Positions 12,058 to 61,964 of a stretch of 64,000 nt of DNA are shown one piece after another. Source of the stretch: Clytia hemisphaerica (Eukaryota; Cnidaria; Hydrozoa; Leptothecata; Clytiidae); the NCBI GenBank assembly GCA_902728285.1, contig CACVBU010001038.1:1015180-1079179 (forward strand). Direction: 5' to 3'. A program made the position numbers and the translations under genes. Under the pieces are notes generated by a model that saw only the letters and a program-made list of their open reading frames with translations, searched no databases and had not been told where the DNA came from. How positions within the stretch are numbered: the first letter of the stretch is position 1; each line of letters opens with the position of its first letter.

Positions 12058-12372
12058 TTATCTCATTGAGCTATTTCATTAAAAATCCATACAGGGGGTG
12101 AACGAACCTTTTCAAGTCAAAATAAAATTCTTGGAAATATGAGGACACCCCCTGGAAAATGGTAAAATTTGGAAAGATTTCTTTTTACGCTTTAAAGTGA
12201 AGGTGGATTAAAACCTGTTTTTTACCCCCTGGAAATTTAGAATAACTTTTTATACCCTGGAAAATGAAAAAAAAACACTCTTTTAGACCACTTGGAAATT
12301 GTTCTCCGATTAACCCCTGGAAGTTTTCGTCCATCCCTCTGTATAGATATAAAATGGAATGGTCCATTTGAT
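12058..12372. mobile_element. MITE, 'ATACAGGGGGTGGACGAA' family with CCCCCTGGAAA motif array
   Basis: The left end has ATACAGGGGGTGAACGAACC and the right TTTTCGTCCATCCCTCTGTA. Between them CCCCTGGAAA-type words recur about five times (for example near 12148, 12225, 12255, 12315). Copies lie at 47622-47925 and 49884-50160 in the other orientation. Confidence 0.8.
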
Positions 12373-15300
12373 ATTGAGTGCATACAATCTTAATACTATA
12401 TAGCCGATACCGCACTTATGGCTATCAGTCCAAAAGTCTGCTCAACAATCAAACACGCCAAAATCCCAAAAAAATCGGATAGTGCTATGGTAAACAGCCA
12501 CTTTGAAATAAGTTAAAACCAAGCTGGCACATAATTTGGGAGAATTCTGTTGGGCAGTTTCTTTGAGCTGCCAGCTTCGTTAATATGTCAAAATAATTGG
12601 CTACTTGCATTTTCAGCGGAAATACTTTTATTTGATTAAACTTTTGGATTGTTAACTGTAAGTACGGTAGATTTTTGGTGGATTTCTTATGCTTTCTTGA
12701 AAAAGTGTTTGAGATCAGTAAATATATCTTGAAAATATGATGTTTCAATGAAATTCAGAATTGGAAATATCATGAAATATGATATTTCCACAACTTTGGA
12801 AATATAGAAAAGTCATATTTCCATATTTACAAAAGTTTATGGTAATATCATATTTTCAAGATATTTCCATGATTGGAAAATCTTATCTCTTTATTTATAT
12901 CGCCAAATGGTCTTGTGCATAAATTTTCTCACCCTTTGTCTCTTGGTCTACACTACTTTTGCGATACTAAACAGCTCTTGAATTACACTATGAGTTGTAC
13001 GTTAAAACTCTGAATGAAATGAGTCACTTTTCTAACGTTTTTATGAGGAGGAGGAAACACAGACGAATCTAAGCCGAAGGGCTTTATTTGCAACTTTAAG
13101 CTTTCTCCAGCAAAAAAAAAGCAATGAAAAAGCAAAAAATTTGACTTTTTAAATTTCGTGCCGATGGATAGGATCTAGCATTTTAATTGTTTTCGGAGCG
13201 CGAGATAAAAAACGTAGGCGACAAACGCTATTTCACATCTCTCAAACCGGTGAAATTGCATATTTTAGTCACGTGACTCTGGTAGGAAATCCTTCCAAAG
13301 ATGAGCTTCACTTTTTGATAAAAGCTGCAAATCTAGCCCTTCGGGCTTTACAGATATCTGTGGGAGGAAACAATCAATTTTTTGCTGACTTTGCATTCTT
13401 TTCAAGAGAGCAATTAAAAGTTGGTTTGATCACATCGCCCTCACAAGTTGATAAGGGAATATTATCGCTTATGTACCATATAAATTTGCTTGATCTTTTT
13501 AGCAGTAATTAGAAAAAATAAACGATTCAATAAGAAATAGAACGGCGGTGAAATAGATGGATATGGCTGCCAGTGATTGTTGTTTTGTTTTCTTCGGTGT
13601 AGGAAATTTCATAAGACAGTTACTTTCAAAATTTATTTTTACTTTAATCACTTCAATACAAGGATATCTTACATTTTTCAGGAAAGCGCCGCCTCTACGC
13701 TTGAGTTTTCGATACCATCGTCGAAAGAAGTTTTTCTTGTAAATTTACTACCAAATACCAGTCTCAACAAAAGCTGACTAAACTAAGACTTGAAAAGTTT
13801 ATGAAAATGTTAGCGTTTGCATGAAAATTCATTTTTTGATCTTGAATTTCTGCTGCAAGTTTAGTTTGTATCAGCCCGAGCACCACAAAGCGGTTTTTCA
13901 CGTTTTAAGAAGCTTCATGCGAGATATTTCATGGAAGAGGAAGGGTTTGGGGCAGGGAACGTGTGGTAAATCAACCTCGATGTTTTTATTGATATCACGT
14001 GTGTATGTACACTTGTTCTGTTTAAGCATATGTTTTTGAAATGGGAATCTATGGATTTTAATTATGACATTTCATAACCTCTGTGGTAATAGCCTACAGC
14101 CTGCCGTTGTCTCTGTAACTCTCAGTTCTTCTCCTCCCTCTTATACCATATCAAAACTATTTGATCCTTAGGGTTGCACATCAGCAACTTGTCTTTTTCA
14201 TTGTTTTCTTTGTGTCTGCGATAATCGGATTTAAAAACCATTCAATTGCCGTCATGGCATATATAAGGCTCTGTCTTCATCTTTATTAAGATCATTTTGT
14301 ATGAGCCATCACGCCCCTATTTTTACAGTACTAGCCAGACTCCTCCTCTAGCTGTTAATATTTCAAGCTCCACAGTCTAGACCCAATAGGCATCATCGGA
14401 GTTTGGATATTGACACGCCTTTATTGGCAATCTTTTAGTCAATCTTTGGATTTACCCGTTTGTCTGGCAAACTGAAATTTACTGCCTCATCAGCCATAAC
14501 AGTGATGTCTTTTTATATTTGAGATAAATTTAAATATTCATTATCAGAACAATAATCATTAAAGGTGACTGGGTTATCCTTGATTTTGGAACAGCTAAAC
14601 CCCTCCCGTAAAAGCAGCTACTTTGTTGACTGTGGAAACCAATTAATTTTTGATAATTGAATTCTCTTTACCTCGAGTTAAAAATTATGAATGGGTGGGA
14701 TGATAGTAGGTATATGTATTAATTGCTTTAAGTTTAGACGAAGAGTTGGTGTTTAGACGATGGTTGTAGCTAAAAAAGTTGCTCTAAAAATCAATGTTTT
14801 GGCAAAAGTTTTGGGCAGGGAAAGCTAAAAGAAATCTAAGTGCTATCCTGCGTGAGAAAGCTACAATGTTCTGTTTGCACATTTGACTAAATTAAGCGCA
14901 TCCGCTTAAACAGAAAAGATGTTGATTTTCAACGGGAAAAAGCTAATCCTTTTTGTTTTTATTTGGCCTTTGGTTTTGTTTATTTTTAACGCGGAAACAC
15001 GGAAATGATACAGACGATTGTTGTCGTTGTGTTGGCATGTCTCCTATTTAGTCAGTATATTAGACTAGAGAGGAGATAGTATATTATAAAGAACTTGCAA
15101 AGAGGGGACATTTCTCATTCTAGAGTGTTCATTAAGGCTTAGGAATATTGTTCCATTTGTAGAGTATTCGACTTGTTAAAAAATCGACTAGAATGTAATA
15201 TCGAGTTTTTTATTTTACGTTTTTGAGGACAGCGATTTGGAACTACCTGCAGTTCTGACCCGCATAATTGGGGACGGTTAAAGTGCTTGTTTACCGTCGT

Positions 15301-15709
15301 CATCCTCAGTTGATCAGGATCTTGACAAATCAGAAGCTAACCTTCTCCGCTGCTCAAAAACACAAACGCTTGTCAAAGGGGAATATCTTCTACGTCAATT
15401 GAATTGCTCGATGTGAGCAAGGCGATCGAGTCTGTGCTTTTTTATTAATCCATAGGAGCACGTTTTTCGCATAATATCATTTACCACTACTCAGTTTCTT
15501 GGAGCTCTCAAAAGGAACCGATTTTCTAATAAGATTTCGAAGCACAGTTTATTAGATAATGAAGCGTATTGGAAAGCCAGTTAGTGGGTGGATTTTATAC
15601 CTGGAGAATCATACAAAACAATATTATTTGGTTGAGGTAGCTGGTGTATACTTTCTTAAGTTTTGTGGTATGGACAGTCTACAAGATGATGGCAATATGA
15701 GTGTTTAGA
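12373..15709. other. intergenic, no gene seen
   Basis: About 3.3 kb without a gene. At 12750-12880 the word GGAAATAT recurs about seven times in both orientations, including a palindrome GGAAATATCATGAAATATGA. At 13085-13110 and 10340-10460 are CCGAAGG-type words of unclear origin. Open frames at 13273-13512 and 13557-14039 match nothing I know. Confidence 0.4.
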
Positions 15710-15713
15710 TTAA

Positions 15714-16254
15714 CCTTTTGAGTGCCACGGTCATTTTTTTTATAATTTTTTTTAAAAAAATCGCTAGTTCAAACTTTAAAGGCTTATATCTTCGGATCTA
15801 GAAGGACGTAGAAGCTCGTTTATAGTCCGTTGGATAGCTTAGAGTCTCCTCTTTCTTTTAGGCGCCTTCGACCTTCCACTGCGCGGACCTGACTGAATGA
15901 TAAAAAGGTGCCGAGTGGTAAAACTTCAAACTAATTCACTGGAGGACAGAATCAAGTTAATCAGGGCCAAATGTGGAGGATCTTGGATCACTCATTGACC
16001 AAAAATGGTCAAAAAGCGGTCAAAATCTTAAAAAAGCGGATTTTTGTCAAATTTTTGCATTTTTTTTGACTTTTTAGCTTAAAATATCAAAAGACTCACT
16101 TTTGATTTATTTTTTTTGCTTGGCCGTGAATCCCAATCCGATTCTTACGAGTTAGACCAAAATGACGATTTCTAACTCAAACTGGGCAATACAGGAGGGC
16201 TTCGCCCTCCTACATAGCCCATGCTTGATATATACGACATTGGCACTTAAAGGG
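15714..16254. mobile_element. piggyBac-like MITE at TTAA
   Basis: It is bounded by TTAA at 15710-15713 and 16255-16258. Ends read CCTTTTGAGTGCC and GGCACTTAAAGGG. TTAA duplication with 5'-CCY ends is the known signature of piggyBac-type elements. It is non-coding. It carries a GGAGGGCTTCGCCCTCC hairpin near the right end and TTGACCAAAAATGGTCAA in the middle. A related inverted copy is at 62940-63553. Confidence 0.88.
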
Positions 16255-18015
16255 TTAAGTATTTTGCTTTTCTATGACTAAAACCCCTCTTTATTTTCTG
16301 TTTTAGGCTGTTACATATTGGTAGCTTCTATAAAATGGATCTTAGTTTTATGCCTTTTTCCAATCAGCATTAAAGAGAAGTAAAAGAAAATAGATTGATT
16401 TTCTACTACATGCTTTCAAATAATTCTATATAGTACTTGGAAATATCTTTTCAACGATGCCAAGAAACATTGAAACATTTATTAAAAACAAAGAAGATAA
16501 TATACACAATTGAAACTTATGAATTTGACGCATCCAACTTAACTTACATTAATGTAGCTGTTTCAAAAGAATAGCAATCTTTCCTTTCTAAACGACAGAT
16601 CCGATCACGTTTTAACTATTGCATTGAAACACTAATTTTTTGGGACCTCCTTTTGACTAGGTGACCCTTAGTAAGAAAATAGCTAAAGCAAAACAGATAC
16701 AAAAAATCCCAGCTTGCTTATTTTTTTGGATTTTATTTATAAGAATTATGAAAGCAGTGATCTTTATGACTATAAAGCTCGGATCGGATTTTTGGATTTT
16801 TCATTCTGACCTTAAAAATTTTCGTTTGAAAGCTGGCACAAACCTTCGCACGTGTTTTTCAAGATTGTATCTCAATAATTTCCATATGCTATGAAATATT
16901 TGAACATTTTACAAAAAATTTCTTGTAGAAAAGTACCAGTAATCACGCCGTGATAAGCTATTGCTTTAAAAAATCAAATCACTGTTTGAATTTAACAATT
17001 TAAAACAGAAATTTGGCGCGTATCGCGAAAGGAATGTTTAATATTTTAACAACATACATTTCGCTTCGAGCTTAGCACGGTTAGATGTGGGCTTTATCCA
17101 GGGTTTAAATAAGTGGCTTTATATTTACTGTGTTTTTTTTCATTCACTTCAAAAATTAATTTTGACTGGTTGAAAATTGATGGCATAGTTCGAATAGATA
17201 TAGATATGGATTGAAAACAAGACTTAAGTTGGAAAGTGTTTTAACAGAGTATCTTGAAAACCACGTTTCTTTCAATTTTGAATGAAATGAGAAATTGTGT
17301 TTCTGTTTTTTTTATTTGGTGCCACTTTTGAACTTTCTCATGACATAATGTTTTTGTTCAAAATAGAGAAAGCTTAATTTTAGATGCGTGAGTAGGATTT
17401 AAAATGAATCAGATAATTAAACATCAGTCAGGTAAAAAATATCAAGAAAGAAGTTGAAAAGAGCACATATAAATTTACATCCTTGCGGCTTTTGTTTTTT
17501 TAATTTTGATCAAATTATTTTGGGTGTGTTTTTGTTAACTTCATTAACCCACCCTCTTTTTCAATTTCTTTTATTATGTTAATTCATTGCTCTATGGGAC
17601 AGTGTAGGAAATACGTTTACCATAGTTTGTACATTGTATAAAATACGCTAAGATAAGTTTTATCATCCTCTTCTGAGAGCTTGAATTATGGTCCTTTTTA
17701 AAAAAAGTAAGTCTTCGTGGTTAGGTCTAATTCAAGTTTTATGAAAAAGTTGAAATTATTTCTTAGGCATTCATTTTTTTGCATAGACTGCTCAAAATAT
17801 GTTAGATTCTAATGAAGCTCTCTTCAATCAAGCGTAATGCTTTTTCCTTCTTTAAAATTTCCTAAGACCCTTTTTAAATCGAAAAACTAGTCATGGAAAA
17901 GTTTTAAATTCAAGTTCTAGTTTGTTTTGGGCTCACTGTTTTCCATAAGGGCATAAGGGTATTTAGTCGCTTTATTGCCTCATTGAAGGCTGTCGAAATT
18001 GTGTCAAATACCTTG
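16255..18015. other. intergenic, no gene seen
   Basis: AT-rich, with frequent stops in all frames. The fragment AAAGCTGGCACAAACCTTCG at 16830 may be a trace of the 98-bp palindromic MITE. Nothing else is recognised. Confidence 0.35.
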
Positions 18016-18214
18016 GTACACCCGGTAGGATTTTTTCAGCCAGTGGGTAAAAATAACAGACTAAAACTCCAGCTGGGATGGGAAGAAATAGTGAGGCAGT
18101 GAGGATTTGCTTATCTGATTATTTTCAGCGGGCGAACAAAAAATTTAGGGTATAATTTCCACTGAAGACGATATGTTAGCCAATTTTTGCTTCCGGGACT
18201 GTGAGGAGGGGATG
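18016..18214. mobile_element. MITE, 'CTCACAGACCCGGTGGAAA' family
   Basis: The left end is TACACCCGGTAGGATTTTTT and the right GCTTCCGGGACTGTGAGGAG. It shares with the 44788 copy the internal order CAGCCAGTGGGTAAAA, GCAGTGAGGATT, TGATTATTTTCAGCGGG. Confidence 0.75.
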
Positions 18215-18571
18215 TTCTTATTTAATTTTTTTGGTGGTTATTTCCAACAACCTCTAGAAAATTGTATTATGGTTAGCAAAAGTAGGAACTAAAGGCGCTG
18301 TAATTGTTGATCCTAATCTTCGTTTTACAATCAATGAATCGTTATCTTACTCAAACATTATTAAGATCCCTAAAATGAGATAGCATTTTTATATGAAACG
18401 GTATGTTTTTGTGACCATAATTTGATCATAATCCCTCTTATCCCTTGTTTACATGTTCAAAATTAATAAGCTTTGATGGATTTTGTATTTTTAATTGATG
18501 AAAGCTCACATCAAATTTTTGCTCTTGATCGTTGACAGGTTGGTGCCGAATTTTTGAATTTTGTTGTATTA

Positions 18572-18690
18572 CAGTGGAGTTTCCATAGCTCGAACACGCA
18601 TGGGAAAATTTCGAGATATAGATAAGGTTTGCATTGTTCTGAAAGGACGAGAAAACTTATACGAATTAAGGAGACATTCGAGTTGTAGAG
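18572..18690. repeat. pogo/Tigger-like fragment
   Basis: The left end is CAGTGGAGTTTCCATAGCTC preceded by TA, with downstream ACGAATTAAGGAGACATTCG. It resembles the TA-flanked elements at 20837 and 43330. I cannot find an intact right end. Confidence 0.45.
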
Positions 18691-20836
18691 GTTTGTCTAA
18701 AAATGATCATTGAAGCAACGTTATGGAGTAAACAAAAGAAGTCAAACATTTTGTATTAATCATGGAATAAAATCAAACTCGGAAATAAAAAAAATTGACA
18801 CCAAATGATATCAGACAGAATTCGGAGGTTTCTTAACTCCTTTGATACTGTGGGAAACTAAAATACAAGGATATTTTCAAGGCCATGGTGTATACGTCTA
18901 TTTTAAATGCAATTCCCTCGACTTTGGTTAAATCAAAATAGGTCATGTTTGGGTTCGTTGGAAAGCTCTTTCTAAAATCTTTTCAGTTTTTTTTTAGGAA
19001 TCCTTTATTAAAAATTACCAGCAGCTGAAAGAATCGTTCATAAGTAAAGGGAATTTAACTGGTTAGTATTGTACTGAAAGAATTGACTCGTGTCACCTAA
19101 AGTAGGAGATTAAAGCGAAGGGGTACTTTGTTAAAAAGGAATAAAGGAATAAAGTGGAATAACTCAAAATAAAATGGTCTAATGTAGTTGTTTACCAATG
19201 CTTTACTATTTTGACATGAAAATTATAATTATATAATTCATCAAATAATTTTTTTTTTTCATGCTGTTCTCATAATTTCCTGGTACTCCTCCCATTTCTT
19301 TGCGTGAGGCCAATGAACAATTTTCTTTATTTCAATTATCCGTGGTCAAATGACGTAATCTTTGACGTGATTTTCTATACAGAACCTCACAGCATGAATG
19401 TGAGCAAGTGTGACCATGTAGAAAAAATTATTTTAGGTATTATGAAATAATGAAAATTATTAATTCAAAACACTTCCAAAGGGAACAGAATATGCTTCTT
19501 GATTTTTTTTCATGGGAAATTGTTGGCTTAGAGTAGGGAGAGGTTATTACACTAGTAAGAAAGAGGATTTAATCGTCTATAAAATAGGATTTTTGTGCAA
19601 ATGTCTCTGGAACATAACAATTACACAATTAGCAGACCATTAATCATTAATCGTTGGTCTGTCAGCTGGGATATTTACATATTAAAGTTGGACGTAATGA
19701 ATCTTTAACTCAAAAAGTAAACTAGGAGCTAAAATTTCCAAAAGAGATGCATATGTAAGTTCTGAATGAAAGGAGTTGTTAGCTCGCAAAAACTACCATA
19801 TTTGTCTGTCGATCATCTTAGCTGAAACTTTAGGTCATTTTAGAAGTTTGACGTCATCAATTTCTGACGTATTTCTGTATTTGATAAAGATCCTAAAACT
19901 TTAAGATCTTTTGAGTTCAAACTGACTTTTAAGGTGTGAAATGTGTAATAATTTACACTATACTTAGAAATCGTTTAGAACATACCAATTATATTTGCTT
20001 TAGGGTTAACACAATATTCAAAGTTGCATGTACACTTTGGAAATTTGACACGCTTGGCTTAAATCTTCATATCTTTTAGTCTTTTTTTCTAGACAATTAT
20101 TTATTAGTATCCATCGGAGTTATAGTGACCCCCTTATCATCAGTTTAAAACTCAGATTTATCTTACTTATATATCCAGAACCTTTTGAGTTTTATTCAAA
20201 CTTGAGCTTAATCTTGACTGGGTAGGAGTTTTATTTTCAGGGTAAATTTTTATTCCATCATTAAGTTGGCTGATCATCAGCAGCATGATGGCAGGGGGGC
20301 AGAAGGGGGAAACTCCCTCCCCCCGCTCTCAGTGGCCAGTTTTTGAGGGGTGCCAAAAGACAAGGAGCGCAATAAGTCACCTTACGATTACGACCTTTGC
20401 TTTCTTACACCTCAGAATCAGCAGTTTTTAGCCAAAAAAAGAAAATATTCTCGTGCTTGCTTCGTTCGCCTAATTTCTCCCAAAATACCACCTTTCAAAA
20501 TTCGTTCCCCAGTGTTTGGTTGACCCACCACCCTAGTACTGATAATCCCAGCAAAGGGCAATATTTTCATTGTTATGGAATTCGCTATCCTCGTATACCT
20601 CAATATCAAGATTTTTAGCTTTGTATTTATATGTTGAAGCCAGAGGGCTTCAATTGCGTTTAAAGCATCACTCTGGTTCATTAGCTACATAATAATGATT
20701 TATTTTCTTCATACATAACGTCAGCCTGATCCAAATACTAATGGAAAATTATTTGTTGCGACCTTAGAAAACCCTCGGAGTAGTTTAATTTCCTCGAATC
20801 ATACTAGAATACATGCATCGTTACAAAATTAAGATA
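18691..20836. other. intergenic, no gene seen
   Basis: About 2.1 kb. The part 20280-20350 is unusually G/C-rich (GGCAGGGGGGCAGAAGGGGG) and probably a transposon end. The overlapping open frames on both strands at 20397-20681 have no recognisable product. Confidence 0.4.
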
Positions 20837-28906: not shown

Positions 28907-29298
28907 TATATGTTCAAGAGTGGTTTAAAGACATGGATATGGAGTCAATGGAGTGACTTTCCAGCTTCAATTGGATAAGCCTAACTGAGACAGGGTTTTC
29001 CTAGCTCTTTAACAAATTAGATAGGTCTAGCTACTGTGAGCTTTGCAGCAAGCATGCAGAGCATGCATGAGCATTAGAATTAGAAGGCACAATCAATGCC
29101 GAAATATTTGGCACAAAAAGTGAATTCCCTCAAAACTTTAAAACTTCAAGTGATCTTTAAGTGCTTTTGAAGTACAGTTCGGAAGTAGAGTTCAGTCAGT
29201 GGAACTCTGGGTTTTAACATAAGACTTAGGACTTTAGGATCTCAGGATTTACAAGCTCAAAAATGTTCCAATAAGGCTGAGAATATAGTCTGGAAGCC

Positions 29299-29634
29299 CG
29301 GGGGGGCACTGGGTTTGCGGACTGACGGTATGTGCGGGCCAAAAATTGGCTTTTATAATTGCACCCTTACAGTGCAGCAAAAATCAGTGAAAATCATACC
29401 CTTAGAGTGCATTTTCCCCCAAATTTTCGATCCCTCTCGTGCAAAAAATGGTCAAAATTCTAGCATTTTTGGTCAAAATATCTAGATTTTTCAAGAATTT
29501 TCTGAAATTTCTACCCTTACAGTGCATCTCTAGTTTTTCCGACCCTTACAGTGCATTTTAAACATATTGGAAAAGGTACCCTTAGGACCCGCACATACCC
29601 GTCGGTCCTTTTGCCCAGCTGCCCCCCCCCCCGG
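29299..29634. mobile_element. CCCGGG-bounded MITE with CCCTTACAGTGCA array
   Basis: The element starts with a G-run and ends with a C-run at CCCGGG. GTCTGGAAGCC is duplicated at 29288-29298 and 29635-29645 (8-11 bp depending on where the palindromic CCCGGG is cut). Subterminal GACGGTATGTGCGGGCC is mirrored by GGACCCGCACATACCCGTC. CCCTTACAGTGCA or a close variant occurs about four times. Copies: 58091 and 61403. An 8-bp duplication with subterminal repeats would fit hAT. Confidence 0.88.
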
Positions 29635-29645
29635 GTCTGGAAGCC

Positions 29646-34569: not shown

Positions 34570-37500
34570 ATGGTAGATCATGGGGGAGGACTGGTGGAAG
34601 ATCTTGAAAAGAAAACTGGCTTAACTGCTGATCAGGTAAATCTGGTAAATCTCATGCCATATTCCTATAACATTTATTTGGAATAATGTTTAATCATCTT
34701 TCGGATAACAGTCTACATGGTCATTAAAATGACATTCACAGTTAGAATTTAACACAACATAAATAATCTTGTATATATAGTATGTCATGACATGATATAC
34801 ACTTTTTTTATATAAGAACAAGTAAAATGTTGTTGAGGCTCAGCTGTTCTTATTTTTTTGGCACTTTGAGCCTCAAATTGTTCTTATCAGCCTGTTCTTA
34901 TTTATATTTATAAGGTGTAATTGAGGTGTTTTGGGTGTTATACCCAATTTTTTACTACTTTGACCCATAAATTGCATGAAACTGAGTAATTTCAGACTGA
35001 GCATTGTTCTTAAATTGTTCTTTTTTTGGCGATTTTGAGCCTCATTATTCTTATAAAAAAGTGTGATTGAAAATATTCTTGAAATCAAAACTCTCTCTCC
35101 TTTTAATTGGACATTTTTTCCTAGAGAAGAGTGTGTCAAAATTTTAAAATAAGAGAATCATTCATTCATTTCATTGTTTTAGATTGTACCGCTTATTACA
35201 TTATTCTTTGCCTTCTGGGTTGGTCACATCTTCCGAATATGGTTAAGTCCACAGCGAATTTCAAGTCAAAAACGACACTTCATATCAATGGCTCTTGGAA
35301 TTATCATGCTATCAATAGTTTTTGGGGAGTAAGACTTTATAAATTACTAGTATCAATCATAGCCCCGGCAATAACCACATCTTTGTGATAATAATCCAAA
35401 TAACAACAAAATTTATTTGATTAGACCTTTTCTACAGTTGAAATTGCAGAAGACAATATATGGTACAAGCATGGGTTTTGCTTTGTTTTTGATAGGCTGG
35501 CTCAAGGAAAAATTAGCTCTGGCGAAATCTAGATTCTAGACCGGCGAATTCTTAGCAAGCCCAATGTATTGATTGGCATGAATATGTACTTGAGGCAGCG
35601 AATGGAATTGTTAGACTGGAGAATCTTTTTTGTGCCTTGGACCGACGAAATTCGCTGATTGCCGGGCCTTAAGACCCCTGGATACAAGTTTTCTATATAA
35701 GATATGTAAGACAAAGTTATTTTAAATATATTTTCTCCATTTTAGACAAGCATTCCATCTGCTGTATTCATGTCTCATCTCATACACACTGATGCGTTTT
35801 GTTGACACTAGTGTTGTACACGTGTAAGTAACACAAAAAATGTTAACGTTTTATACCCTTTGTAAATATGGGAAATCATATGCAATTGGAAGAGGGGAGC
35901 CAAATGAATTAAAATTCTCTTAGATTTTGAGGAAAAAAATTATTTTGTTACCAAAGCTTGAAAACTGAAATGATCTCTGATTAACTGCTGTTTAACATTT
36001 CTCTCTCAGAATAGCGCTCTCATTCAAAATTACAACATTTCTTTTTAAAATTGTGTAATCTTATTTCTACTTCTTCTTTTTCAGATGGGTTATGGGTAGT
36101 GCAATGTTATATTTATCATTGATACATTTTAAGAGAATGATGCTGCAAGATGATAATTATGTTGTGGATATTTCTGGGTAAGACCAATGACCTTTATATA
36201 TCCTTGGACTAAGCTATATCCGCCATCTTTGATCATAGTTTTTTTTGAAATTGGTATTGAAAAGAAGCCATTGCAATGTTAAAAATTAACGTCTAACGGC
36301 GCTACATCATCAAAAGTATCAGAGGAAAAGTAGATCTAGCGCTATCAATGTATTTTCACCGCTATTGAGTAGTGCCGCCAATAGGGCTCAGATCAAAGAT
36401 TTTTGGTTGGCCCGGATTGAGTAACTTGGTAGGGATATATAAGGTTCAGTGGGTAAGACCCTTTACCTTGTTCTTTATTTATTTAATAGATTGGTTGAAA
36501 AAATATTGTACACCAGTAGTGAATGTAGTCTATTAGTTCTACTTTACTTCGAAAGACAATACGGGCACGCTTCGCACAGTAAGCTCGAGCCTGACTACAC
36601 AATTGTATCATTGGGGATATAAAATGTTATATGCACAACACTAATAGCGTTTTTCAAGCTGTCTATCATTTTTATTGCATTGCTACTCAAATTTTTCTGA
36701 TGATTTATATGTTATTTCTTCTTAGACCATTGATGCTTGCCACTATAAAGATAACTTACGTTGGCTGTGGAATACATGATAGTAAGATGTCATTTAAAGC
36801 ATTTTAAACTTTATACTTTAATGGAAAATTTTTTTTGCGAGAATTAAATTTCGCGGATATCGTGAATTTGGGTCTTATCTGCAAAATTAAATTTTCAATT
36901 GGAATTTGAAAAGACCTCATCCACGTAATATTTTTGAGAAAAACGCAAAAAAATGTCAAATAACTATTTCTAAAATGTTTACTGGCATCAAAGAAGCACT
37001 GATAATGCGTGCTTCGACAGTCGACATGCAAAAATAGGTGTAAAAAGGCACAAAGTCGTGAAAGAATTGTCTCCCTATAGTATCATCCGCAAAATTAAGT
37101 CCCGGCAAAATCTAAGGGATGAGCTCAACTGCAAAATTTAACCCCTGCAAAAGTTTAAACCTTTAAAAGTATGCGTTCAGGGCTTGAAAATTCTCAATGG
37201 AGGGCAGTTGAGTGTAGGCAGTTGCCAAATTTTTTGGGAGGCGATATAAGGCAAGAGGTGCCTCTGATTTTGAATTTCAGAGCTCCTCTGCTTTTTTACA
37301 CCCTAGTAGGGTTTGGTTTACACCAAAAGAGGAACCACTACTGGAGAGAACCCATTTTTGTGTTGTTTTTGTTTTAACTGCAATAACATCAACAGTGGGG
37401 AAAGCTCTTACAGTCTTAGTCTCTATCAACTTCCTTGCCCTAGATCACAATTTGAATAAAATCTCCCCCCTTCAAGTGCACGATGAATTTTTCCCCACTT

Positions 37501-43500: not shown

Positions 43501-46500
43501 CTGTACTTCTGTGTTTTCTTTTCATTTTAGCACCAGAGCTATACGAAAGTTCTTTTTGGTTCAAAGTAATGTTCGCTGAAATCATGGTTTATCATCACAA
43601 ATTTAAGTATTATGGTGCTTTCGGATTAGGTACGTTATTGGTTAATACACTGGATTCCTTTTCTAGTTTAGTTCAAAGATGGCAGAATATAATACAACTA
43701 CCTAGGTGAATGAAGTCGCTCAGTAGTTGGCTCACAAGTAGCAAAAATTTTAAAATTGCTGAAAAAAGACGGATTCGGATCCTCTGGATTTTTTTTCAAT
43801 TATGAAGGACCCCCTTAGGTTTTTTTCTCATTTTTTGGACCACCCTGGATTTTAAACCTCGTTTTACTGACCACCCTGGATTTTTACACTCGAAAAACCA
43901 GACCCCCTGGATTTTTATTTACCAGACCACCCGAGACGTCACTCCTCCTTAACATTGGATGTAATTTTCTCATTCGATTTTTAATTAATTTTACTTCAGG
44001 TGAAAGTATATGTAATGCTTCTGGATTGGGATTCAGCGGTGTAGATGAAGACCGCAACCCAACATGGGATAAATTGAAAACATTAAGGCCACTTCAAATT
44101 GAGGTATAGAAAGCGTTAGGGCTATTTTATCAATTTTTATGCACTAAACACTTAGTAACCATTGAGTTTAAAGCCGAAGGCTAGAGAGGATTCTTCAACC
44201 TTTTCTAAAGCAAAAAAAATAAAAGAATTGAAGCCACTTTAGGGATGACGGATTTAACCTAGCGCTTTTTTTCGAAACCCGGCGATAAATCATCTTCGCT
44301 TCTTCGGGGGTTTAAACTCAATGTTAGTAACTCAATAAAAGTCGTATCACGTGAAGTTTTATTGGTTTTAATAATTTTCCAGTATGCAACAAATATTCGT
44401 GGCTATGTGGATTGTTGGAATTTGACTGTAAATGTTTGGCTTAAAAAGTAAGTTTGGTTAAGCCTTAAGTTTATTTCCACCTATTTAGCAGACAAATTTT
44501 TACATGTAGCAAAATCATCTTGGGAATTAAATATCTATTTATTGAACCAAAATTTTACTTTATATAAAAATTTGTCTTTTTTTTTTTCGAAACAACTAAT
44601 AAATACCGTGGTATTGAATTTCTTTCAAGGAATGTAAGATCACAATATCATACGGTTGATTCTCTGTAGTTTGAGCTTCCATTTTTCGAATCTTCCTAAA
44701 GTTTGAACTAATTCCCACAAAGGGGTAACTCTTGTAGACTTGAATTAAAAGGGATGAACCATAACTAACGCCCAGTTCCCACAAAGACACCCCCTTCTCA
44801 CATACCCGGTGGGATTTTTTCAGCCAAAGGGGATAGGAATAACGGACTATAACTGATAACTGAATATTTTGTTTTCAAGTCAGAAAATCCATTGTGCATG
44901 GGAAAAAATGGCATAATACTATGCAGTGAGAATTGGGTTATCTGATTATTTTCAGTGGGAACGAAAATGGTAGGATAATTTTCCACCGGGGACGATATTT
45001 TGGACAATTTTCCAGTGGGTCTGTGAGAAGGGGGTGTACGCAGAAGAAACTCTTTATACTTGAATTGAAAGTGATGAACCATAACTAACGAGATTGTTAT
45101 ACTTTTGTTTAGATGTGTTTATTCTCGTCTGAAAGTAATACCATTCCTTGGTACTTGGGTATTCTCGGCATTATGGCATGGTTTCTATTCTGGTTATTAC
45201 ACATTCTTTATACCACTTGGGTTTGCGCTGTTCCTCACTCGAAAGGTATGCATTGTTTTACATTTACAATTTTTTAGGTGCCTTCTCTATTTCAATGAGA
45301 TATAATTTTACGGTTTAGCTCTCTACCAAGAAATTTCAAGATTTTACCAGGACTTTTGGTTTGTGGCAGATATTTTCAGTTAATCTAGATTTCCACCCCG
45401 CGGTTTTTTATGATGGATATTTTGATGGAACTTTTAGGGGAAAATCATCCTATAATATTCTTAGAATATTCTTAGGTTAGGACCCTAATTCAAACTAGAT
45501 TTAGCATGTAATATACACGTCTAAAGCATAAAATGACAATTTTGTGAAAGTAGTGAGCCTTACTTGGGGGTAATTGGCAAATTATAATTGAAAGTGCTCT
45601 AAAAATGGCATTCTTTTATTCTTAGCATATTCTTAATTTTTTGGTCAATTTCATCATGAATATTCTGATAAAGTATAATTCTTATATAAAAAAGCGTGTA
45701 TTCTAGTTTGTTGATTAGGCAACAATTAGGCTAAAATTGAATATGGGGGTGGAGGATATAACATTTTTTGTAAGATCGGGTTAACCCCCGGACATTGTGA
45801 CTTTTGACCACCGGACAACAGATTTAACCCCCGGACAACAGATCTAACCCTCCCGGACAAGCATCATTTGACCCCCCGGACATTCATAATTACCCCTAAA
45901 AAGAGCAGTTTTGCCCCAAACAAGCCAAATTTTTCACTACCCCTGGACAATATATCCAATATATCCTCCACCCCCATGTACGATTTTCTGTAAGAGCACA
46001 ATTAACTGAAATGATAATCAAGAAGACTCAAAAATCTCAAATGAAATCTATAAAATAAACAGGTTTTACTAAGGATAATGGAAAGAATCTTTTAGACTAG
46101 ATTTCTTTTTTATTCGGCTATCCCTTTGAAGACAAAAGCTTTTCAAATTACATTACAGGTCCGAAGAACAATTCGTCCGTACTTTTTATCGTCGCCATCT
46201 TTGAAATTATTTTATGACGTCATCACTTGGTTCGTCACTAGACTCTTGTTAAATTTCTACGCCGTTGGATTCGCAACATTGAACTATGCAATCACCTTCA
46301 AATTTTGGAAGTAAGTTTACCACATATCTTATAAAACACTAGAAGCAAAGCAAAAAAATTAATCCACAAACCTTTGTAAGATGACCCCAGTTTGGTGCCG
46401 GCAATTTGATCAATCAAGACCATTCTCTCATCTCCTCGTTTTCTGCCATTTCAGTTGTTTATTCTGATTGAACAAATTGCCGATACCAAACTGTGGTCTA

Positions 46501-47500: not shown

Positions 47501-47621
47501 ATCTTATTTGCGATGATTATGGGGCTTCAGGTACGCAGTGATCTAATTCTACTTTTATCTCCTATTTCTCTGTGACATTCTGGTGTATGTCGTTTAACCA
47601 CAAGAACAAAATTTCTCAAAA

Positions 47622-47925
47622 TGGCCATTTCTTTTTATATCCATATAGGGAGTGGACGAACATTTCCAGTGGGTAATCCAAGATGAATTTCCAGGGGCTG
47701 TTTTTTCATTTTTCTAAGGGGGTAAAAAGTTATTCTAAAATTTCCAGGGGGTAAAAGACTGATTTTAGTTCGTCCACCCTCACTTTTAAGATATGAAAAG
47801 AATTTTTTAAGGTACTTTTGCCATTTTCCAGGGGGTATCCACGCATTTCAATAATTTTTTTTTTAATTGAAAAGGTTTATCCACCCCCCCCCCCGAACGG
47901 TTTTTTAATGGGACAGCCCATTGTG
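47622..47925. mobile_element. MITE, 'ATACAGGGGGTGGACGAA' family
   Basis: Left ATATAGGGAGTGGACGAACA, right GGTTTATCCACC followed by a C-run and GGTTTTTTAATGGGACAGCC. CCAGGGGGTA occurs three to four times inside, and TTAGTTCGTCCACCCTCACT in the middle is itself a copy of the end. Confidence 0.8.
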
Positions 47926-48631
47926 AATTTTAGGGTATCAAGCTCGTTAAAATTTTGTTTTTTTTAATCAAATATTTTTGATAGTTGTACATAATAGTTA
48001 TCTTTAACAAATTAAGTCGAGTATTTTTTTTTTAGTTCACAAAATTTTTGATAATAATAGTATTTTTTTGGGATAGTTTTGATACAGTTAATATTTTTTC
48101 TTTGTTTTATATTTACAACTTTGTTTTGTTTATGCTGGTTTATGATATATTTAACCTTGTTTTAGTGCAGTTTTCATGCGATTAAGCACCTAAGTTTACG
48201 GTTAAGACCATTGAAAGAAGAATGAAAAATGAAAGAAAAATAATCAAAGAATGGTGTAAGGAAGCCGAAAAAATGAGTGCTTAAATCAAGGGAGACAGCG
48301 CAAAATGGAAAGTCCGAAAAAAAATATATTTTAAAACGGTCATTGTAAAAGTACGAGCGGATAATAAAGGCCCATGTGTCTCCACGGTGGCCTGCAAACC
48401 TGTAAAGCTTTATTATTATAAGAAGAAAACAAGGCATTTAAAGTTCCAAAACGAAATAAAAACGCTAAAAACGTTTTCTACGTTGTGAAATTATGGCTTA
48501 AAATTTTCAATTCTCAAAAAAGGTCCAAAGTAATATTTTCTTTAAAAAATAATTATTGTTTGGAGACAATTTTTCATTCGTGGGTAATAGACGATATTGG
48601 CTTAACATAAAAACTCAGATTTGATCCCCGA
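47926..48631. other. intergenic, no gene seen
   Basis: T- and A-rich sequence with no repeat family I can define and no coding signal on either strand. Confidence 0.35.
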
Positions 48632-49883: not shown

Positions 49884-50160
49884 AAGTTAATGGATCATTT
49901 CATTATATATGTGGACGAACATTTCCAGAGGGTAATCCAAGAAAAAAGCCAAGGGGGTAAAAGGTTATTCTGAAATTCCCAAGGGGTTAAAGACTGATTT
50001 TAGTTCGTCCACCCTCACTTTAAGGTATGAAAAGTATTTTTTCAAGGGTATTTTGGCAAACTTTGCCATTTCCCAGGGGGTATCGACACATTTTCAATAA
50101 GTTTTTTTTACTTGAAGAGGTTTATCCACACCCTGTATGGTTTTTTAATGAAACAGCCCA
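49884..50160. mobile_element. MITE, 'ATACAGGGGGTGGACGAA' family
   Basis: Left GTGGACGAACATTTCCAGAG, right TTTATCCACACCCTGTATGG then TTTTTTAATGAAACAGCCCA. It is aligned throughout with 47622-47925, including the central GTTCGTCCACCCTCACTTTA. Confidence 0.8.
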
Positions 50161-50350
50161 ATATGGAATTTCGAGGATTTGTTTCTCTGAATATATAGAT
50201 TAAGGTTCGAAAATTCCTTGTCTGGTTGTCTATTTAGATAATGTCGATAATATTGATAACCGATAAACTTCCTACTTTTTTTTTACAGAGCTAAAAAAAA
50301 TTCAGATACAACAAAAAAAGACAACTATAACCTATTCATCGAGACTACAT

Positions 50351-55189: not shown

Positions 55190-55561
55190 ATACACGGGTT
55201 TCGAATTAAATTTTTGCTTAGCTTTAGGTTTGATCCCATGTAAATTTGCACGAAAAAATATCAAGTATACAGAACGAAAATTGGCCGTGTATCAAGCAAT
55301 TTTAGCTCATTTTTCCATTTTGACAGACTTTATGGGTCATTATGAAAACAAAAAACATTAAAATAAAAAGTCAATCGTTTAATCATAATCATATTTCTTT
55401 TATTGAATTTAAAATAGAAAAACATCTTTTGAATGAATTCCTGGCTTTCAAAAGAGAAGAAAGGAAATCTATCAACCTTTTATAAGGCATTTCCCCTTAT
55501 CGCTCCTTTTTATTACTTGATTTTTTCTCTCGCGCCAGATTTAATTCGAAACCCGTGTATT
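55190..55561. mobile_element. 372-bp inverted-repeat MITE
   Basis: Ends AATACACGGGTTTCGAATTA and TAATTCGAAACCCGTGTATT are perfect mirrors, extending to about 25 bp. The open frame 55116-55361 overlaps the left end and has no recognised content. Confidence 0.82.
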
Positions 55562-56258
55562 AAAAGTGTAAATGTGCCATGTAAAAATTTTCAAATGTAG
55601 AGAGCAATTTTAACTCGTTATTTCCCCAATTTGTTTGCGGCTAAGGCATCTCTTTGCGGCGTTTCTTTAATTTTTTCTTTTGCTGACACGCTGCTGTTCA
55701 ATTTTGATGAATGACTCTAGTTTAAAAATTTGATGTCACTTTTGTCATATTTTATTTTATTTCCAGAAAGGTAATAATTCTTTCTACTTTATCTCTAGAC
55801 ACTTAAAACTAATCCTTATCTCTCCCGAATTCATGATTCGTACCGGTTCCACCACGCCTATTTCGGTTGGGATTGAACTCCATTGTGTCTCTTAGCTTAA
55901 AGCCCCATGATTGTCGTATCCTCGATTTAAAGGTTCGCTTTCGGTCAAGAACACACTTGATCTTTAAAAACTTTGACTCTGTAGTTCTTAGGTTGTATAA
56001 AATCTACTTTTATGAAAAATATTCAAAATACAGGCTTCAATTACTGATGACTCTTGATTGATATCATCACCAGGGGTGCCTGAAAATTGTACAACAGTTG
56101 TTTTTCCTTTTCAAACCATCATAAATCAAACACCAGACGACACTAAATTGATATCTTGTTCGCTATTTCCAAATTTGTTTTGCCAAACACCGCTCTTTGA
56201 AGCAGTTATCTAACCCTATTTTTAGTACATATTAGTCATCGCCGCTTTTAGTATTACC
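55562..56258. other. intergenic, no gene seen
   Basis: No coding or repeat signal that I can support. Confidence 0.35.
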
Positions 56259-56340
56259 CCCAGCTGGCACACAACGCTGTTTCAACATTCATGCACCTAA
56301 CGAAATATGAATGTTATTTGGACCTTGTTATGACGTCTTT
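56259..56340. mobile_element. truncated 98-bp palindromic MITE
   Basis: Starts CCCAGCTGGCACACAACGCT, then degenerates after ATTCATGCACCTAACG. The right terminus is lost. Confidence 0.7.
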
Positions 56341-56820
56341 TACCAGTTTGGGATTCCCTAGCACGGGGGCCACTTATAGCTTTTTTTGCTTGAGGTGGTA
56401 GCAAATCCAGTCCACTAGATCCAGTCTTTAAAATATGTTTCATTGTTTTGGTGTTCTCGTATGATTTTTGAAAATAAAAGTGAAAAAATCCAAGATGGTG
56501 AAATCCTCTAGTCTACTTCACTGGACTCAGCGCCATCAAAATCATCAAAAAGCAAAGTTCAGTCAGAAGTAGACATGATGGCAACAGTTTTGTAACGATT
56601 ATGTTCCTGGTGTTTTCGTAAACATTAGTGCAAGAGTAGCCTATACTAGACGACGCCAAGGCTTTTTTCCAACGCAGAGAGAAACAACATAATATTTCGC
56701 CTTATTTGGTAAATTTTTCAGCGACCAAACCGTTGTTTATCTAAAAGTACAGTTTCATTTTTATTTTTTCCCTCGGTCGTGAACGAAAAAGATTTTAAAA
56801 TGGGAAAAGTTTGTAGAACT
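56341..56820. other. intergenic, no gene seen
   Basis: No feature that I can support. Confidence 0.35.
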
Positions 56821-57081
56821 ACACGTTTTTTTTTTTATAAGAACGTCAAAAATCTTCGGATGTTCCTAGTTTTTTTGGATTTGAAGCCTAAAAATGTTCT
56901 TAAAATGTTCTTATTTTCAGCATTTTTTGAGCACTTTGACTTTGATTTGACTTTAATTTCTTAAGAAAAATGCATGTTTTTAAGTCTCCACAGCCTTAGA
57001 ATGTTCTTAGAATGTTCTTAAATTTTTGGGCCTCGAAGCCTTATGTTCTTATATAGTTTGTTCTTATAAAAAAAAACGTGT
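56821..57081. mobile_element. reference copy, 'ACACG-T(n)-ATAAGAAC' MITE family
   Basis: 261 bp. ACACG plus T-run then ATAAGAACGTC; right end TTGTTCTTATAAAAAAAAAC then GTGT. TCTTCGGATGTTC, AAGCCTAAAAATGTTCTTAA and CGAAGCCTTATGTTCTTATA are shared across the other copies. Confidence 0.88.
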
Positions 57082-58037
57082 AGATTAGTGAGAGTCCACT
57101 GCCAATTTATATGAAGGGAACTCGCCCATGAAACGATGAATAAAAATTACGGTGATTTTATTTATTTTATCCCTTCGCTTTGTCAATTCAAGTTCATTTT
57201 GGAGGAAATGGCGCATTGTAATAATCAGCGAACAAACATTCGACTATTCCAATGTCGCTGAACTTCATGCCGCTTCGGCTTCTTGTTTCCTTACACACAT
57301 CATTTAAATTCAATTGACTCCAGAATATTCTAAACAATTATTCTACCGGGTATTTTTTACTTTTCCTTGAACTTTTATTAGACATCTGACTGCGACTTTG
57401 TAGTGATATGACCGGAAAGCGTTTACCCCATGTTCTATAATTGATGGCATTTTGTGGTCGATTAAATTTATACTTTTTTCAAGAAATAAACACAGCTAAA
57501 ATGTTGTGAAATTCGAGAAAAAAAGGAGATTTTAATGAACAATAATCTCAAAGGAAACCATAATTAGTTTGGTATTTTTGTAATTGGTATTTTTGCCGGA
57601 AATTAAAATATCCGATCTTTGTCATGTCTAGAAACTCTTTCAATCCCGCATTTGTTGTCAATTTAACTACCTAACTATAATAATACTCCCGAAATTAAAT
57701 TCCCAATTAATACATCAATTCTATATCTGTATTTGTTGTTGAATTCTAATGGTCAATTTAAACGGTCTGTTAAATTTCCCGAAACGTTTGTCTGCAAACA
57801 GAGCCGATTTATACAAAAATATCAAGATCCTTTACCGTAGAGCACTACGTTACGATATATGTGAGATACATTATGGTACAAATTAGATAAATGTGGGTTT
57901 GTTGTAAGAACATTTTTGTATAAACTTGTCTGAAAGTCGGTCAAAACCCTTAAGAACAGTTTCCTGTTTAGAATCCCTGGTCGTAGTTCAATAAAAAGAC
58001 TATCTAAAGGTTCTAGATTATTCGGCTATTATTCAGA
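57082..58037. other. intergenic, no gene seen
   Basis: No coding or repeat signal that I can support. Confidence 0.35.
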
Positions 58038-58090
58038 CACCCTGTTTCACAGTCCTGGTGAGAGTTTTTCCCTTGATGGGATGAAAATTT

Positions 58091-58368
58091 CCCGGGGGGA
58101 GTGGGTTTACCAACTGACGGTATGTGCGGCGAAAAAATTGGCTTTTAGAATCGAACCTATACAGTGCAGAAAAAAACGGTTTTAAACTCTTTTAGAGCAA
58201 AAAAATCAAGATTTTCGAGCAAAGATTTGCATTTTTTTCCCAGATTTGCTGAAATTTCCACCCTTACAGTACATTTATCAGAAGTCCACCCTTACAGTGC
58301 GTCTCTGATATTTTGAAAAACATGCCCTTAACCGCCGCACATACCCGTCGGTCGAATTCCCAATGGGG
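58091..58368. mobile_element. CCCGGG-bounded MITE nested in the 58038 element
   Basis: CCCGGGGGGAGTGGG, then GACGGTATGTGCGGCG mirrored by CGCCGCACATACCCGTC. CCCTTACAGT(G/A)C motifs near 58260 and 58290. The right terminus is eroded (CCCAATGGGG), so the duplication is unclear. Confidence 0.75.
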
Positions 58369-58490
58369 ATATAAATTATATTGTTCCTAAGTCGAAAAAT
58401 CCAGTAAATGAATTGTTGGATGATTGGAGGATTTTCGTTTGAATTTCAAATGGAGATCTAATCAAAGCCAAGTTCCCGGTGGGTTTGAAA

Positions 58491-59481
58491 TAGTGAGAGC
58501 TGCCCGAGAGCTGCAATGTTCTTCGTGTGCACAGAGTTGTTAAAAGCAATCTAACTTTTTTAAATGATCAATTAGGTTTATAAGATCACAAAAACGAGTG
58601 GTGAGAAAAATTTTGACCATTTTGCTGGTCCCCATGTGACGTCATCACTTTCCCTGGAGCTTGAAAATGAAAGTGAAAATTAGAAGCTTATATATGACTC
58701 AAATGAAAGATATTTATCCAAGGATTCCAAAAAATATCACAACATATACCTGAAAATTAATATTTGAGAAGCTATAAAGGAAAATAACTCAAAAAATGAC
58801 GTCATCGATGACGTCATCGGCAATTAAAAAATCGTCGAAATCGAAAAATTTTTGTTTCATTTGAAAGAGGACCTTCTTGGGAACAAAAATATTACTATGG
58901 AAAACTTTGAATTTCACTTGATAGGAAATTATTCTGTAGAATGCGTTTGACTTGACTCTCAAGCTTTTTAAAGATTCCTGGGCGTGCCCGAAGCTAACCT
59001 TTCGCAGGCAAATTTAATGAATTACAAATTTGCTGACACGGGCTTATAAGGAGAAATTCAGATTTTTTTGTAGTAATATTTTTTGTTCACTAGATGGTCC
59101 TCTTTCAAACGAAACAAAAATTTTTCGATTTCGATGATTTTTTAATTGCCGATGACGTCATCGATGACGTCATTTTTTAAGCCATTTTCCTTTATAGCTT
59201 CTCAAATATTGATTTTCAGGTATATGTTATGATATTTTTTGCAATCCTTGGATAAATATCTTTCATTTGAGCAGCCCTATATGGGCTTCTAATTTTCACT
59301 TTCATTTTCAAGCCCAAACAAAAGTTATGACGTCACACGGGGACCAGCAAAATGGTCAAAATTTTTCTCACCACTCGTTTTTGTGATCTTATGGACCTAA
59401 TTGATCATTTAAAAAAATTAGTTTGCTTTTAACAACTCTGTGCACACGAAGAATGCTTTCAGAACATAGTGGCTCTCACTA
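58491..59481. mobile_element. 991-bp long foldback element
   Basis: Arms of about 400 bp, starting TAGTGAGAGC and ending GCTCTCACTA, around a spacer of about 200 bp (near 58890-59080). Landmarks mirrored in both arms: TTCTTCGTGTGCACAGAGTT, CCATTTTGCTGGTCCCC, GATATTTATCCAAGGATT, and a double CRE palindrome TGACGTCATCGATGACGTCA. No coding sequence. Confidence 0.88.
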
Positions 59482-59556
59482 AAAGTGTAGGGTAATTTTC
59501 CCACGAGAGACGAAATTTTGGTCAAATTTTCTAGTAAGATTGTGACAGAGGGGTGA

Positions 59557-60450
59557 ATTCGCGTAAAACATCGACTGTAAATATTTTGAGATAAATCATA
59601 GTTGTGTCACATGTATTACAAATTCTATAATTGTAGGTCAAAAACGATAGAGGGCTGACTATGCAGAAAGTTGATCAATTTTGCGGCCAATATTTCAATC
59701 AGTGAAAGTGGGTGTTAAAAGAAACCAGAAGTTTTGCAGTAAGTACTAGCATGAAATTACATTATGTGTTTTTAATTATGCCTAATGACCTAGTTATCAT
59801 GATTACTCGGCAAAAAATCAATTTTTCTTTCCGGTTTTTTTTACGACATTTTACAAGTCAAGAAATCTGATTTATTTCTTTCATCCATTTCTGATAAATT
59901 CTTACTTCCTCCACATTCTGGTTAATTTAGAGATAGTAATGCTGACTGTGTTATAATCTTCCTTATTTGAAACTTCTTCTCTGTAAAATACGGACACTTC
60001 TGAGTAATTTCCTAACTCGTACCGTACTCGTACCGTACATCCTGTGCCCAAGTTCAGGAGTTGCCATAAAGCCATTATGGTAATAACCGGGAGGGCACAT
60101 TGCTATACATTGTAATTTCCTAACTCTGTAAGTAATCACCACAAGTTAGCTTTCTCTGAAATTAATGTAATATTCGTACGCTGTGGCACTCACGGTATGT
60201 AAGTAAGGTTTATAGAATCAATTTAAACCTCGATAAGCAATAGATGAGCATGGAAGTGTTAAACAAAATACTAGTCCCTTTTCTTTGATTGGATTGGATA
60301 AGATACTATTGGTATTTGTACTATTGGTATTCGACCAGTTCTGGTCTGAAAATTAAATGGGCTATTTTTCAAATTCGACCAATCCAATTAATCGAATCAA
60401 TCGAGTGATCAAATGCAGTTTTAGTAATGTTCCACAATAACGTAACGTTT
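59557..60450. other. intergenic, no gene seen
   Basis: No feature that I can support, apart from a short duplicated CTCGTACCGTA at 60016-60040. Confidence 0.35.
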
Positions 60451-60527
60451 ACATCACTTACAACCAATCAGCTATTGGGTCCACGTGGTATAATGTCAGA
60501 AGACATTGCAATGGTGCATATCATGAA
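60451..60527. repeat. right half of the 'ATTCATGATATGCACCATT' foldback MITE
   Basis: CAACCAATCAGCTATTGGGT through GCAATGGTGCATATCATGAA matches the right arms at 9490-9522 and 34200-34266. The left arm is missing. A G-run at 60555-60566 follows and may mark another transposon end. Confidence 0.75.
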
Positions 60528-61256
60528 CAGTGCCGTAGGAAGCATTTTCATATTGGGGGGGGGGGGCTGAAGTTTAGTGACACCGCGAGGGCCAACCATG
60601 GTTTGACCCGAGGGGGAAATTTTGAAAATTTGAGCTCTAGATTTCTTGAAAATGCACTCATAACATGCTAAAAGACAATTATGACAAACTAAAAAAGAAA
60701 AACTTTGCATTTTGCAAAATAACTATTTTTTAAAAGATTATTTGGGGGGCATATTTTAAGGCTTTGCGGACTCTAAAACGTATAAACTATCTAAAACGCC
60801 CGAGTTCTTAGGAAATTGGTCAGAAATACTCACCATATAGTGGGAATAAGAACATGTTAAGATCATTTTCGACTTAGATCTCAAAGTTAAGATCATCAAA
60901 AATTTTTGAAGCATTTAGGAAAAAATGTGTATCCTAGGAGCATTGAAATAACGGAGTAGAACAGACACAATGATTACAAGCTTAATATTTAGATTACCCT
61001 GCGAAAATGTAAAAAAAACATGACGCTTAATTTACACACTTGTCAGTTAAGCAAATATTGCACAAAATTTGATATAGGACGATATGATACGAACTACATC
61101 AGGAAAAAATAAAAGGAAACGGCTCATTTACATACTTTGCTGCATTTTCCCAGATCATCTTGTCTTGTTGAGTCATTACTTAAACTCTAAGCAAGAAAAC
61201 AAGCAAAGGTCAAATATTGAAAATAATTGAATCTACAGTGTGATATTGGTTTTCAT
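60528..61256. other. intergenic, no gene seen
   Basis: GTGCCGTAGGAAGCATTTTC followed by a 12-base G-run (60531-60566) looks like a transposon terminus, but no partner end was found. Confidence 0.35.
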
Positions 61257-61964
61257 ACACGTTCTTTTTAAAAGAACATCCGAAAGTTTTTAAGCCTTCG
61301 GATGTTCTTAACTTTGAGTTCCAAGCCTAGAAATGTTCTTATTTTCTCTATTTTATGAGTATTTTTGTGCAATTTCCTAAGAAATTGGGTCGTTTGAGTC
61401 CCCGGGGGGGGGGCACTCGATTTCGAAACGACGGTATGTGCCGCGTAAAATCTGCTTTTCAAAATCGTACCCTTACAGTGCAGTTCAATATGACTGAAAA
61501 GGTACCCTTTCAGTGCATTTTCTCTTGATTTGTAACCCAACCCTTATAGTGCACTATATTTCTCAGCTGTAAATCTGCGTGAAAGAAGAAGCTTGGGAAA
61601 TTTTCTGTTTCAAAGAAAAACTGAGAAAATTATTCTTGTCAGCCGTAATTATCGGACAATAGAAATTTTTTCAAACAAACGAGAAGTAAAAACCTTTCTT
61701 TTTAACAATTATTTTGAATTTGTTTTAAAATTCGACCCTTGCAGTGCAATCTCACAGAAACACACCCTTACAGTGCATTTTGGGATGCTGAAAAACCCCA
61801 CCCTTAAGCGCGGCACATGACGTAGGCCAGATCATATGAGAGCCCCCCCCCCCCCGGGTTTGAGTCCCTAAAAGGAAAGCCTTAAAATGCTCTTAACTTA
61901 TACTTAATATTTTAGCCATCGAGACCATTTGTTCTTATATAGTTTGTCCTTATAAAAAATGTGT
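61257..61964. mobile_element. 'ACACG-T(n)-ATAAGAAC' MITE interrupted by a CCCGGG element
   Basis: Left ACACGTTCTTTTTAAAAGAA, right TTGTCCTTATAAAAAATGTG. The host sequence is continuous across the insert once one GTTTGAGTCCC is removed: TAAGAAATTGGGTC before it and TAAAAGGAAAGCCTTAAAAT after. Confidence 0.85.
61403..61857. mobile_element. nested CCCGGG-bounded MITE with CCCTTACAGTGCA array
   Basis: GTTTGAGTCCC is duplicated at 61392-61402 and 61858-61868 (8-11 bp by how CCCGGG is cut). GACGGTATGTGCCGCG is mirrored by CGCGGCACATGACGT. CCCTTACAGTGCA-type motifs number about five. At 455 bp it is longer than the 336-bp copy at 29299. Confidence 0.9.

Follow-up and report, generated by a model that had tools for sequence, protein, structure and literature searches.

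What are the short GC-rich motifs that recur within several families of small repeated elements in one stretch of a cnidarian genome? The question is raised by a 64,000-nucleotide stretch of Clytia hemisphaerica contig CACVBU010001038.1 (hereafter the window), part of a 417 Mb assembly. A preliminary description had recognized at least six families there, here A to F, of miniature inverted-repeat transposable elements (MITEs), with motifs of about 10 bp, and had offered three explanations for the arrays: transposase-binding subterminal repeats, a common host factor, or repeat-driven growth. The motifs are ACCCTTACAGTGCA in A, ACCCCCTGGAAA in B, ACCCCCGGACA in C, GACCACCCTGGATTTT in E and GCAAAATTTAA in F; that of D was read as CCCACTGGAAA. 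Based on the window and on stretches fetched from the same assembly (labels L012 to L081), the arrays are probably transposase-binding repeats of MITEs, that is, of non-autonomous cut-and-paste DNA transposons. Among the three explanations, this one is best supported, by the position of the arrays and the conservation of the A motif. The elements of A, B, and C are short, have inverted-repeat ends, a target site duplication (TSD), and many copies, and hold no coding frame; D joins them with exact TSDs in 3 of 6 cases.

The motif counts of 10 window elements, forward plus reverse, were compared with 500 dinucleotide shuffles of each element, a test that is partly circular because the motifs were taken from the original observation. 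At up to two mismatches, the counts were 4+0, 3+0, and 5+0 for three A elements (A1 to A3), 5+0, 4+0, and 3+0 for three B elements (B1 to B3), 6+0 for C, 3+0 for D1, 2+0 for E, and 5+2 for F, and 0 of 500 shuffles equaled the observed count in each case. At up to three mismatches, the count was equaled by two shuffles for B2, one for C, and six for F (each of 500), and by none for the other seven elements. The arrays of A to D clearly exceed the shuffled expectation. The motifs of A to E keep a single orientation, with the sole exception of one reverse match in B1 at up to three mismatches. The window element of E contains two good motif copies and, by eye, two diverged ones. F is weak, and its motif runs both ways. 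No second copy of F, or of E, was found in one limited set of fetched loci; since E was missed there and yet proved to be a large family, this absence says little about F. Of the six families, A to E beat the shuffles, and F does so weakly. The motif had been described as present four to six times per element; exact matches are fewer than this implies (A 5, B 4, C 3, D 5, E 2, and F 1 in the whole window). The proposed spacing of 15–40 bp agrees with the roughly 20–40 bp found within groups of motifs, but not with the 90–230 bp or so across the middle of A elements.

Elements of family A contain three to five copies of ACCCTTACAGTGCA, oriented in a single direction. Its 13-base core, CCCTTACAGTGCA, has 6,363 exact copies in the genome (3,226 + 3,137), versus 1 (0 + 1) for the reversed string. 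The A sample comprised the window and 20 fetched stretches chosen for holding this core, and its 26 elements with at least three motifs were divided among six subfamilies (7, 9, 2, 1, 6, and 1 members). In the common subfamilies the motif positions are constant: two motifs lie roughly 67 and 102 bp inward of the 5′ terminus, and the 3′ pair is about 30 bp apart. Between subfamilies, the motif columns are 91.5% identical versus 59.0% for the rest (252 pairs, 26 elements), a contrast inflated because the elements were picked by motif matches. Within subfamilies, the corresponding values are 95.8% and 92.2% (73 pairs). A perfect 8-bp TSD accompanies 12 of 20 end pairs, while 7 bp is found in two, 9 bp in one, and 5, 6, or 10 bp in none. 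The TSD consensus is nnTnnAnn; position 3 is T in 19 of 24 and position 6 is A in 19 of 24 (both strands), with positions 2 and 7 mixed. A separate listing of 8-bp TSDs with at most one mismatch gave 21 of 32 clusters; several of these (for example, L023, L026, L027, and L030) lie on G/C runs or unlikely ends, and the listing was not relied on. The A ends read CCCGGGG, with a G run 6 to 23 long among the copies printed. Such a variable run at the tips (for example, L019 4234–4700 and L012 2604–3048) is odd if a transposase must cut precisely.

Families B, C, and E have 1,851, 1,910, and 726 first-look candidates in the genome, respectively, of which 40 per family were scored. E is thus a real family despite its two good window motifs. 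In the aligned copies (23 of B, 21 of C, and 5 of E), the arrays are retained by position in B and C, and are retained in E. The outer ends resemble GGGCNNTTCCA and are followed by an A/T-rich stretch and then an inner inverted block with a G or C run. The tips read GGGC..GCCC, and the three motifs are alike. Among the copies with both ends located by script, an identical TSD of AAT or ATT (AWT) flanks 13 of 15 in B and 5 of 8 in C; another 8 B and 13 C copies, with an end not located, were excluded. For E, the 3′ flank is ATT, ATT, and AAT in three of four fetched copies, the 5′ flank being unreadable and the TSD unpaired. Placement of B and C in Tc1/mariner with a TA TSD was rejected, as alignment of the genome copies placed the ends farther out, at GGGC flanked by AWT. 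By their outer ends and the likeness of their motifs, B, C, and E are related and form a single group.

Family D starts with ACACCCCCTTCTCACAGACCC and has ends ACAC..GTGT; in 10 aligned copies, its arrays are more degraded than in A, B, C, and E. The D TSD was compared over seven rows selected by exact ACACC/GGTGT, with window 6887–7176, L022, L028, and window 18096 outside the count. The 6-mers on the two sides match in full in L018, L025, and one kin in L030 (three of six compared), and agree at 5/6 positions in L017, 4/6 in the window copy, and 1/6 in L029; the seventh row is unpaired. By its ACACCCC ends and 6-bp TSD, D is a class apart from A and from B/C/E. The accessible text of PMC10045372 gives the termini of IS3EU as TA..TA; IS3EU was rejected for D, since the 6-bp TSD agrees (3/6 exact) but the ends ACAC..GTGT do not. 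The window D element lies between the two copies of a 43-base direct repeat (91% identity; 44727–44770 and 45048–45090), which far exceeds the D TSD in length. Judged by ends and TSD, the families fall into no fewer than three classes: A (CCCGGGG, 8 bp), B/C/E (GGGC..GCCC, with AWT in B and C), and D (ACACCCC, 6 bp). The claim of several unrelated families accordingly holds for A versus B/C/E versus D, but not within B/C/E, with its common outer ends and related motif. Conservation of the arrays among copies was seen in A, B, C, and E, while D is degraded.

In the mechanism that we favor, the GC-rich motif, placed near both ends and throughout the body of a short element, would be the docking site for the DNA-binding part of a transposase, which, supplied in trans, would mobilize the MITEs. 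Several bound molecules would load each end and might help to pair the two tips. We infer that the motif binds the transposase and that binding is multivalent; different motifs would then mark elements served by different transposases, Harbinger-like for B, C, and E and others for A and D. This explanation is favored because the arrays near both ends keep their positions and because the A motif is far better conserved than the body between subfamilies. The B copies, in which the motif is no better conserved than the spacers after insertion, favor it as well. A precedent comes from Herves: several copies of a short motif lie in the ends of this element and are bound by its transposase, four copies being sufficient (PMC3143072, in its accessible part). 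Some observations, in addition to the inflated contrast in A, point the other way. The motifs face the same direction at both ends, so that the element ends are not mirror images. None of the 10 Harbinger transposase loci read, out of 152 Harbinger DDE (DDE_Tnp_4) matches in the genome, had B, C, or E ends. Likewise, a transposase-sized interior was found in none of 14 additional A places where exact motifs are few, all being motif groups of short or degraded copies; a longer gap separates motifs at one A place, L081, to which the search for frames did not extend. The preliminary description had called for autonomous elements with the same motif, and these Harbinger loci and A places yielded none for A to E; hAT, P, and KDZ transposases lay outside this search.

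Two further observations count against transposase binding and speak for repeat-driven growth, in which duplication or slippage of a motif-plus-spacer unit would produce the arrays with no role in transposition. Copies of C gain or lose whole motif–spacer units (for example, L054, L058, L059, and L065), and between the motif copies of one A element, four of the five positions 4–8 bases upstream of the motif are alike at 0.57–0.66. Tandem repeats within MITEs have also been described for other invertebrates, according to the partial texts consulted. We nevertheless consider such growth unlikely, and it is disfavored for A because the bases around one element's motif copies are mostly unlike: those after the motif show an identity of mostly 0.21–0.42, with one position at 0.63 (160 pairs). 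The A motif positions, moreover, hold across different subfamilies. A common host factor, such as a regulator or silencing protein by which the motifs of every family are shaped or retained, would be consistent with the mutual likeness of the B, C, D, and E motifs (that of D resembles the B motif), found although the D TSD differs in length. In the 23 B copies, however, motif and spacer columns are both 0.923 identical (56 and 149 columns), and this equal decay means that nothing in B, the only family compared in this way, suggests selection after insertion; the A motif, furthermore, is unlike those of the other families. The host factor thus finds no support and is very improbable. Finally, the motifs might bind transposase, with the extra copies restraining movement. 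In the available portions of the papers, piggyBat has three bound sites, the third of which lowers activity (PMC11707139), and the internal regions of mPing are sub-optimal (PMC9921582). The families here are abundant with arrays intact, which is not suggestive of strong restraint, and we regard self-limitation as quite improbable.

A looser hint toward transposase-binding repeats comes from one Harbinger locus. At L075 1367–1560, a GGGCCCGGTTGTTC (GGGCCC) terminus is followed by 12 GATTA/TAATC in 194 bp, a density of 62 per kb versus 2.8 per kb in the rest of the locus, and the array extends into the beginning of a Harbinger transposase frame, which is open over 382 codons. This motif is AT-rich and bidirectional, unlike the A to E arrays, and a second end was not found within 4.5 kb. 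Convincing ends were not seen in the other nine Harbinger loci read. Separately, arrays of TTTTCCAAGGAAAA-like units adjoin two different Harbinger transposase frames (L074 1080–1620 and L075 2830–3180).

We also compared the families with known systems. The TSD consensus of hAT elements is nTnnnnAn, and the usual TSD of PIF/Harbinger elements is TWA. The 8-bp TSD of A fits hAT, but its consensus nnTnnAnn and its CCCGGGG tips do not, and A was not filed as hAT. B and C share a 3-bp TSD (identical in 13/15 and 5/8 copies) and GGG..CCC tips with PIF/Harbinger elements and Tourist-like MITEs; in contrast, all 18 identical B/C pairs are AAT or ATT rather than TWA. By these tips and, for B and C, the 3-bp TSD, B, C, and E appear Harbinger-like, with the reservation that 0 of 10 Harbinger loci lie between their ends. 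With hAT elements that carry subterminal repeats, such as Herves, A shares the short motif repeated near both ends as well as the TSD length, and the accessible part of the Herves paper cites works on Ac, Tag1, and Tol2 (PMC3143072). By analogy, the arrays would act as subterminal repeats do in hAT and comparable transposons. The CMITE families of corals are, within the texts accessible to us, the nearest case found of a conserved inside with varied ends, the inside being more conserved than the ends between families. However, they have a TTAA TSD, are about 100 bp long, and contain a single conserved inside of 75 bases and no array (PMC2872659). Membership was rejected on the TTAA TSD, as the TSDs here are 8 bp, AWT, and 6 bp. 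Tetris of Drosophila virilis and tandem-repeat-containing MITEs also hold repeats within non-autonomous elements, but those of Tetris are about 220 bp long in the available text (PMC4079207), whereas the motifs here are 10–16 bp with mostly unlike spacers. Adjacent copies of one unit, a trait of tandem-repeat-containing MITEs, are absent from A, while C shows some unit gains. The variant described here is a private motif arrayed along much of the element, a layout found in at least three TSD classes within a single genome. No title or abstract opening found describes this set of families; Repbase and most subscription papers lay outside that search, and absence from print is not claimed.

A broader proposal, which we put forward tentatively and hold to be rather unlikely as a whole, is that at least three transposase classes of MITEs, and probably many further families, converged independently on a common architecture. 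In it, a tip lies outermost, an inverted block follows inside, and a private 10–16 bp motif, which would act as an address, is arrayed mostly in one direction. Where the tips stay constant and the motif differs (B, C, and E; CCCGGGG with ACCCTTACAGTGCA or GTCCCAGGTAGGGTC), the change would then record an arms race in which addresses are switched and many sites are selected to outcompete autonomous copies. Should the arrays be transposase addresses, a single genome would offer a natural series of site arrays, present in very many copies and varying in their motif, in the number of sites, and in spacing. Whether multiple sites drive or limit MITE success, a point left open by the piggyBat work, would become testable, and the motif could help to assign MITEs without known partners to their transposases.

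Arrays are also present beyond the named families. A blind scan of 253 kb in 21 sequences, 20 of them picked for family A, for 10-mers occurring at least four times within 350 bp yielded 77 clusters after merging, versus 1 in a control of one first-order Markov replicate. By reading of the list, 27 of the clusters are family A, which the sampling favored. Among the other 50 are arrays of CACCGGAC, CCCCGGAC, GGACAATTGCCCC, TCCCGTCACCGT, and AGCGATCAAAGACCT (24 regions displayed), and some represent simple tandem repeats or coding repeats (for example, L024 at 2869, L025 at 3631, and L029 at 25). A scan of 26 array regions for terminal inverted repeats and TSDs gave few clear ends. In the contigs of other collections, the A pattern had 0 matches among viral contigs and 0 among genome contigs, and the GGACAATTGCCCC pair had 0 among viral contigs; the B pattern matched two viral contigs. 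By eye, a CCCCGGGG element at L074 3765–4135, with GAGCAGAA on either side and motif GTCCCAGGTAGGGTC, combines A-like tips with a different array. Two families (L016 182–526 and L019 2825–3105) have a common GACCCTGCC tip and arrays of CACCGGAC or CCCCGGAC running both ways; the L019 copy has the 8-bp TSD TTACATAT.

The elements of the window are listed in the table below.

Table. Positions of the motif-bearing elements in the window
Element	Position	Strand	Remarks
Family A	29297..29635	+	4 motifs ACCCTTACAGTGCA; CCCGGGG ends; TSD TCTGGAAG
Family A, second subfamily	58091..58353	+	3 motifs; ends degraded; TSD not found
Family A, third subfamily	61401..61858	+	5 motifs; TSD TTTGAGTC
Family B	12061..12369	+	motif ACCCCCTGGAAA; limits are self-match limits
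Family B	47619..47926	-	
Family B	49911..50171	-	
Family C	45717..45999	+	motif ACCCCCGGACA; limits by eye from alignment
Family E	43778..43958	+	motif GACCACCCTGGATTTT; outer ends of this copy degraded
Family D	44787..45037	+	ACACCCC ends; flanking 6-mers match at 4/6
Family D kin	2367..2528	-	
Family D kin	7012..7137	+	
Family D kin	18096..18215	+	
Claimed family F	36814..37200	no strand	motif GCAAAATTTAA; weak; no other copy seen

The window also contains metazoan-type genes (7tm_1 and VGCC_alpha2). Furthermore, a long inverted repeat with ATGACGTCATCG repeats lies at 58519–59453, where the reversed self-match is 84% over 964 aligned bases; it sits between two D-like flanks, as though inserted in a D-like element.

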